From NCBI GenBank assembly GCA_027486895.1, contig JAIXOE010000010.1, forward strand, positions 1 to 64,000: a stretch of 64,000 nucleotides of DNA, written 5' to 3'. The DNA is from Sphingomonadales bacterium (GTDB taxonomy: Bacteria; Pseudomonadota; Alphaproteobacteria; Sphingomonadales; Sphingomonadaceae). The position numbers and the translations under genes are program-made. This document shows positions 12,608 to 14,954 of this stretch, in pieces. Under the pieces are notes generated by a model. It did not search any database. It saw only the letters and a list, made by a program, of their open reading frames with translations, and had not been told where the DNA came from. The stretch's first letter is position 1; every line of letters starts with the position of its first letter.

Positions 12608-13546
12608 ATGACCAAATCCATCTTCATCGACGGCGCAGCGGGCACCACCGGCCTCGAAATCGCGGATCGGCTGGCTGGCCGCGCTGAATTCACGCTCATC
12701 ACGCTCGACGATGACAAACGCAAAGACCCCGCTGCGAAACGCGAGGCATTGAACGACGCCGACTTCGTTATTCTTTGCTTGCCGGACGATGCCGCAAAAG
12801 AGGCGGTGGCGATGACGACTTCAAGCCACACGCGCATCATCGACGCATCCACCGCGCATCGTGTGAACCCGAACTGGGCTTATGGCTTCCCCGAATATCG
12901 CAAGGGCCAGCATGAACGGATTGCCAACGCACGGCTGGTCAGCAACCCCGGTTGCTACCCCACCGGCTTTTTGGGACTGGTTGCACCCTTGGTTGCTGCC
13001 GGATTAATCCCCGCAGACTGGCCCTATAGCGTCAACGCAGTCTCGGGCTATTCGGGCGGCGGAAAAGCATTAATTGAACGCTTCGAAGGCGGCGACGGCG
13101 CGGACATCGGCTTTCGCACTTATGGCCTTGATCTGAACCACAAGCATGTCGCCGAAATGCAGACGCACGCAGGTTTGGGCCTCGCGCCGATATTCTCGCC
13201 CGCAGTTGTACGCGCGTTCCGTGGCATGGTGGTCGAAGTACCGCTGCCCATCTCGGTCATGCCCGGCAGCGACGATCCAGACGAAATGCGCGCGGCCTTG
13301 TCGCTGCATTATGCCAAATCGCCAGTCGTCAAAGTGCACCAGGACGCACCACCCGCTGAACTGCTGATCCGTGCCGACCAAGCGCCGTCTGACCGACTTG
13401 ACCTTTACGTGCTCGGTTCACCTGACGGCGCACAAGTCCGATTGCTGGCGATGCTGGATAATCTCGGCAAAGGCGCCAGCGGCGCAGCGGTGCAGAACCT
13501 GAACATCATGGCGGGGTTGGACGAGACGGCTGGGTTGCTGCTTTAG
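12608..13546 (+). CDS. argC: N-acetyl-gamma-glutamyl-phosphate reductase ArgC (type 2)
   Basis: Reduces N-acetylglutamyl phosphate to the semialdehyde with NADPH in arginine synthesis. The 312-residue product is of the short type 2 form. Visible: IFIDGAAGTTGLEIADRLAG as nucleotide fold, the active Cys116 in SNPGCYPTGFLGL, VSGYSGGGKALIERFEGG, and the conserved LNHKHVAEMQTHAGL segment. The start follows the homologues; the open frame extends upstream through the palindrome but that sequence is repeat. There is no clear Shine-Dalgarno. Its stop TAG overlaps the stop of the convergent unknown gene by four bases. Confidence 0.95.
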   Translation: MTKSIFIDGAAGTTGLEIADRLAGRAEFTLITLDDDKRKDPAAKREALNDADFVILCLPDDAAKEAVAMTTSSHTRIIDASTAHRVNPNWAYGFPEYRKGQHERIANARLVSNPGCYPTGFLGLVAPLVAAGLIPADWPYSVNAVSGYSGGGKALIERFEGGDGADIGFRTYGLDLNHKHVAEMQTHAGLGLAPIFSPAVVRAFRGMVVEVPLPISVMPGSDDPDEMRAALSLHYAKSPVVKVHQDAPPAELLIRADQAPSDRLDLYVLGSPDGAQVRLLAMLDNLGKGASGAAVQNLNIMAGLDETAGLLL

Positions 13547-14127
13547 CGAGGGATGTGGAATTTTATACCGGCGGTCGAACGTCGGGTAAAATCGCCCCAT
13601 AGTGCCCATTCTGATTGATCTGGAGCAATCGCTCCATAAACCCAAAGTGCTCCGATTGAGAATTCCGCCGGCAGACACAAGTCGGTCGGTTCAAAACAAA
13701 AATTACGCCCTAGTTTGATCGCGACTGTAATGTCGGCTGAATCCGCGTATTTTGACAGACTGTCAATCACAGCTTGTATCGTTGCTTTTGGATTTAACTC
13801 GCTTGATACGAACTCTTTTAGCTGGATAGGGCAGAAGTGCTGAATATCGTCTACCTCCCAAGTAGCCACAAAATCATAATCCTGCGCTTCTGTCGGTGAA
13901 AACCTCACCTCTGTGTTGAGAACTTGTGACATCCCCAAGCAAAAAATCGCGGCATCGCGGCTTTCCCTGTCAGCTTTTAGCAGGCTGGTTCTGAGGTGCT
14001 TGGCGGTTGGGGGCAGGTCCGACACGGAAACGGCAGCGTCCAGCGGGGCCAACGCTTCAAGAAAACGCCTTGGGTCCCCGTATTCAAGCTTTGAGTAGCC
14101 TCTCAAACGAACGCTACTGTTCGCCAT
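13543..14127 (-). CDS. Unknown protein, possible PD-(D/E)xK nuclease, coupled to map
   Basis: A 194-residue protein I do not recognise by family. Base composition is lower in G+C than its neighbours. Residues around 83-105 read DYDFVATWEVDDIQHFCPIQ followed by LKEF, so Asp85 then Gln102-x-Lys104 could be the D...QxK core of a restriction-like nuclease fold; this is inference from spacing only. The ATG at 14127 shares one base with the map stop (TGATG on the minus strand), so it is translated by coupling with methionine aminopeptidase. Its stop overlaps that of argC. It sits tightly between two core genes. Confidence 0.65.
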   Translation of the reverse strand: MANSSVRLRGYSKLEYGDPRRFLEALAPLDAAVSVSDLPPTAKHLRTSLLKADRESRDAAIFCLGMSQVLNTEVRFSPTEAQDYDFVATWEVDDIQHFCPIQLKEFVSSELNPKATIQAVIDSLSKYADSADITVAIKLGRNFCFEPTDLCLPAEFSIGALWVYGAIAPDQSEWALWGDFTRRSTAGIKFHIPR

Positions 14128-14954
14128 CAATAGGGCGGCTTGTCAAAACCCTTCGGGCTACTCGTAAATATCTCGCAGCCGTCTTCGGTAATGCCGATGC
14201 TATGTTCGAATTGCGCGCTCAACGAACGGTCGCGCGTTACGGCCGTCCAGCCATCGTCCAATATCTTGCCCGCTGCCTTGCCAATGTTGATCATGGGCTC
14301 GATGGTGAAGATCATGCCGGGACGAAGCTCTGGACCCGTGCCGGGGCGGCCGACATGGACGATTTCGGGGGCATCGTGGAATAATTGGCCAAGGCCATGG
14401 CCGCAGAAATCGCGGACGACGCCATAGCGGTGCTTTTCGGCGTGCATTTGGATCGCGTGGCCAATGTCGCCGACATAGTTGCCGGGCTTGGCGGCTTCGA
14501 TACCGAGCATCAGGCATTCATAGGTCACATCGACCAAGCGCTTGGCCTTCACCGGCACATCGCCGACGAGGAACATGCGGCTGGTGTCGCCGTGCCAGCC
14601 ATTCAGTTGCGGCGTGACGTCGATGTTGACGATGTCGCCGTCTTTCAATTTCTTGTCCGACGGGATGCCGTGGCAAATGACATGGTTGATCGAAATGCAG
14701 CAGCTGTGCGTGTAACCACGATAGCCCAAGGTTGCGGGCACTGCGCCGCCGCGCATTGTCATTTCGCGGACGATGTCGTCCAGTTCCTCGGTGCTAACAC
14801 CGGGCACGACATGCGGCACCAATGCGTCGAGTATTTCGGCGGCAAGGCGACCGGCCTTGCGCATGCCGTCAAAGCCCTCAGGCCCGTGTAATTTGATGAC
14901 CCCATCGCGGGCCTGCATCGCCTCTTCGGGCGTAACGCTTACATATTGTTCCAT
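14127..14954 (-). CDS. map: Type I methionine aminopeptidase
   Basis: Removes the initiator methionine from nascent proteins using two metal ions. All ligands of the pita-bread fold are present: the two Asp in NIDVTPQLNGWHGDTSRMF, His in DFCGHGLGQLFHDAPEI, Glu in FTIEPMINIG and Glu in AQFEHSIGIT. From the ATG at 14954 the product has 275 residues. A TTG at 14972 in the same frame would add six residues and has a better upstream purine run, so the start is uncertain by that amount. The downstream nuclease-like gene is coupled to it. Confidence 0.96.
   Translation of the reverse strand: MEQYVSVTPEEAMQARDGVIKLHGPEGFDGMRKAGRLAAEILDALVPHVVPGVSTEELDDIVREMTMRGGAVPATLGYRGYTHSCCISINHVICHGIPSDKKLKDGDIVNIDVTPQLNGWHGDTSRMFLVGDVPVKAKRLVDVTYECLMLGIEAAKPGNYVGDIGHAIQMHAEKHRYGVVRDFCGHGLGQLFHDAPEIVHVGRPGTGPELRPGMIFTIEPMINIGKAAGKILDDGWTAVTRDRSLSAQFEHSIGITEDGCEIFTSSPKGFDKPPY

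Follow-up and report, generated by a model that had tools for sequence, protein, structure and literature searches.

In parts of the PD-(D/E)xK superfamily, for example in TnsA and Mrr, QxK is an active variant. The genes of integron cassettes generally lack a promoter of their own, and Darracq 2025, Getz 2025 and Kieffer 2025 are said to describe anti-phage genes carried on such cassettes. For the integron of Vibrio cholerae, the available text of one report states that 20% of the function-less cassettes encode anti-phage systems (PMC12444791).

Here, we describe a gene of 194 codons from a 64,000-nucleotide stretch of DNA of a Sphingomonadales bacterium (the window). The family to which it belongs is rare, uncatalogued and horizontally moving, and with it a family of predicted nucleases joins the cargo of integrons, which are now gaining recognition as stores of anti-phage genes. 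Like the known anti-phage cassette genes, one relative from Gemmatimonadetes is carried on an integron cassette, and integron core sites adjoin two other copies; unlike them, the window copy lies outside any integron, and its defence role is a prediction. We see about an even chance that the window copy is a mobile, single-gene defence nuclease gene directed against phage or other foreign DNA, which has settled behind map and whose function is predicted. The gene and its two neighbours are arranged as follows.

14127..14954, minus strand: map, type I methionine aminopeptidase, upstream on the same strand (TIGR00500, E 7.6e-90)
14125..14129, minus strand: TGATG, stop codon of map overlapping the start codon of the 194-aa gene
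13543..14127, minus strand: gene for a 194-aa PD-(D/E)xK-like predicted nuclease of an uncatalogued family (open reading frame, relatives, alignments and model)
13543..13546, no strand assigned: TAA of the gene (minus) overlapping TAG of argC (plus)
12608..13546, plus strand: argC, N-acetyl-gamma-glutamyl-phosphate reductase, convergent (TIGR01851, E 1.4e-110)

The boundaries of the gene can be read directly. Counted from the ATG at 14125-14127, the open reading frame 13543-14127 (minus) comprises 194 codons, and this ATG forms TGATG with the TGA of map at 14127-14129; at the other end, the TAA of the gene (13543-13545) and the TAG of argC (13544-13546) have two bases in common, and the genes overlap by 4 nt. 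An earlier reading (the sequence-only reading) had pointed out both of these joins as well as a G+C content below that of both core neighbours, and all three are present as described, with the TGATG suggesting translational coupling to map. The G+C content is 0.507 in the gene vs 0.603 in argC and 0.588 in map, and the third-position values are 0.51, 0.69 and 0.73, respectively. Since 8% of 1269 same-length windows of the whole stretch have a G+C content as low or lower, the drop is real but modest and does not make the gene an outlier for the window. The reading frame is a genuine gene rather than a chance one, as the alignment of six relatives (35-49% identity, 32 invariant columns) shows. 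No defence gene was found beside the window copy.

The sequence-only reading also took the gene for a recent arrival, and the related genomes agree with this. The window copy is the sole one in 61 genomes, 37 of which belong to its genus (its own genome counted), and no copy was found in the 36 other genomes of the genus. Of 45 genomes of the genus, 42 yielded a map gene, and 29 map loci from the 41 others were examined; argC was seen in 25 of these loci, always in the convergent orientation, and the other four loci do not reach argC. Adjacency of argC and map without the gene, which the earlier reading had proposed to look for, occurs in 22 of the 25 relatives, where the two stops are 4-318 bp apart and no open frame exceeds 59 aa. 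In L027, L028 and L032, the stops are only 4-5 bp apart, with nothing inserted. The same reading had considered a recent arrival perfectly joined to both neighbours to be unusual: the join is indeed exact on both sides, but these three relatives show that the genus has tight junctions even without the gene, which makes the fit less strange. The junction that received the gene is otherwise short, and therefore the tight fit need not imply a special joining mechanism.

Other features of this junction were also recorded. In three of the 25 relatives (L038-L040), exactly 1037 bp of other sequence lies between the map and argC stops. The short map-argC spacers of L015, L017, L021, L023, L024, L029 and L034 contain palindrome-like pieces, CCTGAAC...GTTCAGGGTGACG and GTCATGCTGAAC..., which resemble dispersed repeats; of three patterns of this kind, two are present in the window, in one copy each, and the third is absent from it. 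An insertion that replaced the last argC codons was considered (GLLL in the window vs GLRL or GLWL in relatives) and rejected, since some relatives end in CGG CTT and two plain substitutions suffice.

The family comprises eight members including the window copy (genome G000), and the seven distant relatives are 35-50% identical to it. They come from another genus of the same bacterial family (G062), a plasmid of Spartinivicinus ruber (L006), Henriciella (L008), a gammaproteobacterium (L009), Gemmatimonadetes (L010), Desulfurivibrio (L011) and a viral contig (L044); the sequences of L008, L009, L010 and L011 are all metagenome-assembled. In the order, four of 396 genomes gave a match at E 0.01 or better, and two of these matches (the window genome and G062) are full-length, the others being short with internal stops. 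With the window protein as the query, three of 398 genomes of the phylum matched, namely, the window genome, G062 and one genome with a short weak match. Profile scans gave two hits in 397 genomes of the family, two in 299 of the phylum, two in 270 of the class and one in 81 of the genus of G062, always from G000 and G062, and the samples for family, genus, phylum and class overlap. G167, G068 and G778 gave short weak matches (E 0.005-0.01), two of which contain internal stops, and these were left out of the family. Among 72,556 plasmid records, one contains a relative (the Spartinivicinus ruber plasmid), and none of 50,697 phage records does. Pattern-seeded scans of species genomes and viral contigs, which were not exhaustive, yielded at least four relatives in the former (L008, L009, L010 and L011) and at least one in the latter (L044); the window protein alone retrieved no relative from either collection, nor did a three-sequence scan of the viral contigs.

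Is the family already described under another name? The window protein gave no match up to E 1 in Pfam, NCBIfam or PHROGs and a single match in PADLOC, at E 0.056. In the scans of these four libraries with the seven members of alignment A2 (that is, without L044), no match was better than E 0.0047 and each match occurred in one member only; the best from PADLOC was Cas11a (E 0.0047, one of the seven members), which is at chance level. Thus, neither the 194-aa protein nor its A2 relatives convincingly match the anti-phage defence models of PADLOC, and the same holds for Pfam, NCBIfam and PHROGs, which sets the family apart from the catalogued part of the PD-(D/E)xK superfamily. In the literature on integron cassettes with anti-phage defence or a nuclease fold, covered through titles and opening abstracts and mostly outside subscription papers, no description of the family was found among the papers listed.

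The sequence-only reading had suggested a PD-(D/E)xK core from D85 and QxK at 102-104. These residues were found at those positions, and together with E55 they correspond to the following codons.

13963..13965, minus strand: E55, candidate motif I in helix 48-70 (invariant; helix in the model)
13873..13875, minus strand: D85, candidate motif II just before strand 86-92 (invariant; strand in the model)
13816..13824, minus strand: Q102-L103-K104, candidate motif III in strand 95-106 (invariant; strand in the model)

Two alignments were used, A2 with seven members and A3 with six (five of those in A2 plus L044), which together contain eight distinct members from several phyla. E55, D85, Q102 and K104 are invariant in both (7/7 in A2 and 6/6 in A3), so that the conservation of D85 and K104, which the earlier reading had made a test of its suggestion, extends to all eight members. 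The 32 invariant columns of A2 include E55, D83, D85, Q102, K104, E105, Y127, W162, D170, W174 and G178, and all eleven of these residues are also kept in A3. An AF2 model built with six sequences (pLDDT 82.7, pTM 0.83) shows a helical N-terminal part followed by a helix, three strands, a helix and a strand, and this predicted order is that of the PD-(D/E)xK core as defined in the available text of PMC1913061; a single-sequence AF2 model (pLDDT 36) was discarded. In the model, D85 lies just ahead of the second strand (86-92), and Q102 and K104 lie inside the third (95-106), giving a conserved motif II D and a conserved motif III (D/E/Q)xK at strands 2 and 3, with E55 as the acidic residue of motif I in the first core helix (48-70). 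The structure prediction called for by the earlier reading thus leaves its nuclease suggestion standing, and the conserved motif residues and predicted topology support that suggestion. We infer that the protein is a single-domain, metal-dependent nuclease of the PD-(D/E)xK superfamily, with E55, D85, Q102 and K104 as the candidate active site; these four residues are clear targets for mutation, which makes the prediction directly testable. Compared with the superfamily, the family has extra N-terminal helices with an invariant LRT..LK stretch, a C-terminal part with the invariant W162, D170, W174 and G178, and Q in motif III instead of the commoner D/E.

Structural comparison gave weak matches, mixed with non-nucleases. 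The best Foldseek matches are weak (E 0.013 in PDB and E 0.0073 among viral models), and Mrr-like, PD(D/E)XK and VRR-NUC names appear further down the viral-model list; a sequence search against solved structures gave chance matches only. In the VIA-align listing, which re-examines Foldseek's own matches and in which absence proves nothing, the best match is PA4535 (1y0k; Z 7.0, rmsd 3.9 over 126 residues), followed by the N-terminal region of PaqCI (8epx; Z 5.7, rmsd 3.7 over 123 residues). Both are individually weak, with Z below the tool's safe level and only 10-12% identity to the window protein; moreover, the PaqCI chain has 492 residues vs 194 here, and the title of PA4535 is that of a protein of unknown function. 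Judged by their titles, approximately 30 of the 50 entries are nucleases, including PaqCI, HinP1I, MspJI, EcoO109I, HindIII, BsmI, Hachiman HamA, NucC, SPARDA, EndoMS and a Holliday junction resolvase. Acetyl-CoA carboxylases, which are non-nucleases, take up 12 of the top 16 places. Given the weak individual matches and these carboxylases, the structural search is not decisive by itself.

Another important question is how the gene travels, and the clearest evidence comes from L010. In this Gemmatimonadetes locus, the gene is preceded by an integron integrase in two reading-frame pieces (TIGR02249, E 8.6e-15 and 1.9e-64), neither of which reaches the family cut-off, and the genes of the array are separated by sites of approximately 90 nt bounded by GCCTAAC...GTTAGGC or one-base variants. 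An attC site starts 9 bases after the stop of the gene, and its bottom strand folds at -34.9 kcal/mol (z -5.96; none of 200 shuffled sequences is as stable); the site ahead of the gene folds with z -3.92. With complementary core sites, a hairpin and the integrase pieces nearby, the L010 copy is an integron gene cassette. The integrase itself is split over two overlapping reading frames (L010 6461-7272), and it may be inactive or the split may be a sequencing error.

In the 14.7-kb locus of L011, the strand of the gene contains a single GTTAGGC, 9 bases ahead of the ATG, and a single GCCTAAC, which overlaps the stop; the downstream stretch shows no attC hairpin (z 0.46), and therefore the cassette reading of L011 is drawn from the core 7-mers. 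In L044, GTTAGGC lies 5 bases before the ATG, which fits the statement in the available text of PMC9892861 that phages carry attC sites and cassettes. Counting motifs within 25 bp before the start, or overlapping the stop or up to 18 bp after it, core 7-mers occur at five of 16 gene ends vs 0.03 expected from the motif density per locus (without L010, three of 14 vs 0.007); this count is descriptive and not an independent test, since the motif had already been noticed in L010 and L011. Signs of a cassette are absent from five of the eight members, and among the other three the complete attC is confined to L010. No core 7-mer was found at the ends of the window, G062, L006, L008 and L009 copies, so the window copy, with none at either end, is not identified as an integron cassette. 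No integron integrase over the family cut-off was found in the window genome or G062, the matches in the window genome being below it, and of the two tRNAs found with Rfam, neither lies at a gene end.

The four members with a readable same-strand upstream gene and no integron sign (the window copy, G062, L006 and L008) all lie directly behind that gene. In G062, the gene directly follows the stop of dxs, with a gap of 0 nt if GTG is the start; in L006, another gene ends 3 nt upstream, and in L008, a SIR2-like gene ends 9 nt upstream. Across the members, the upstream genes are map, dxs, a 215-aa orphan, a SIR2-like gene, a TfoX-like cassette gene and an ABC-transporter-like gene (the last named by eye), and in the L010 array an Mrr-like gene lies approximately 500 bp downstream of the cassette gene. 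A conserved partner gene was looked for across the members and not found, and profile comparisons gave nothing, either with the L010 Mrr-like protein or with the 215-aa upstream gene of L006.

Since no partner gene is common to the members, the protein probably acts alone, and since some relatives travel as integron cassettes, the window copy probably represents a mobile defence gene that has settled at this site. The missing partner, together with the SIR2-like and Mrr-like genes near the L008 and L010 copies, makes a single-gene defence nuclease our first choice, with the chances roughly balanced. In this lineage, an integron-borne nuclease gene would have arrived and landed outside an integron, settling in the convergent map-argC junction downstream of map. 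As cassette genes generally lack promoters, such a copy would depend for its expression on read-through from an upstream gene; here, it may be translated with map through the TGATG, and the encoded nuclease would then cut phage or other foreign DNA as a single-gene defence. This suggests a cassette-type gene that lives on outside the integron, stitched behind a core gene. More tentatively, the members as a whole could be an undescribed family of single-gene anti-phage nucleases that spreads between phyla on cassettes and also settles, promoterless, behind the stops of other genes, core genes included, driven by translational coupling; we regard this wider picture as possible, and well short of likely.

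Other roles have to be weighed against this. The weak fold matches include EndoMS and a Holliday junction resolvase (Z 2.7-2.9), which would suit a repair or recombination nuclease of the resolvase or mismatch type, gained as an accessory function, but the very patchy distribution (full-length copies in two of the 396 genomes from the order) and the cassette context fit accessory defence better, and we consider a repair role unlikely, if the foremost of the lesser readings. Next in probability, and also improbable, is that the PD-(D/E)xK fold is kept in a protein that is not a nuclease, such as a binding protein, or that the fold is wrongly predicted. The Q in motif III in place of the commoner D/E and the weak fold matches mixed with non-nucleases speak for it; the invariance of the four candidate catalytic residues across eight members, which represent several phyla, and the activity of QxK in some members of the superfamily such as TnsA and Mrr, speak for a working nuclease.

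The nuclease could instead act as the toxic component of a growth-arrest module, such as a toxin-antitoxin pair. Modules of this kind are common in cassette arrays, and another gene does end 3 nt (L006) or 9 nt (L008) upstream, but these upstream genes differ among the members and no partner is conserved, which makes a toxin less probable again. Least probable of all is a free-standing selfish nuclease of the homing type, which would promote its own insertion at gene ends and leave the neighbours intact. Such an element would account for the sporadic occurrence at differing places per genome and exactly at the stops of core genes (map here and dxs in G062), and the bacterial homing endonuclease I-Ssp6803I, which has a PD-(D/E)xK fold, is among the weak fold matches (Z 3.4). 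However, the two insertion sites have no obvious sequence in common by eye, the copies found are few and unlike one another, which is ill-suited to efficient homing, and in L010 the integron accounts for the mobility.

Two of the relatives lie in loci with features of their own. In 29 loci from other genomes of the genus of G062 (L047-L075), the enoyl-CoA hydratase-like gene that comes next in G062 is in reach in 16, from 3 to 1300 bp from dxs, and this spread indicates that the stretch downstream of dxs is itself variable, a slot for changing genes. On the Spartinivicinus ruber plasmid, direct repeats of at most 73 nt recur between small hypothetical genes near an RHS/DUF6531 gene (L006 6745-16494), and this array is possibly another kind of cassette array.
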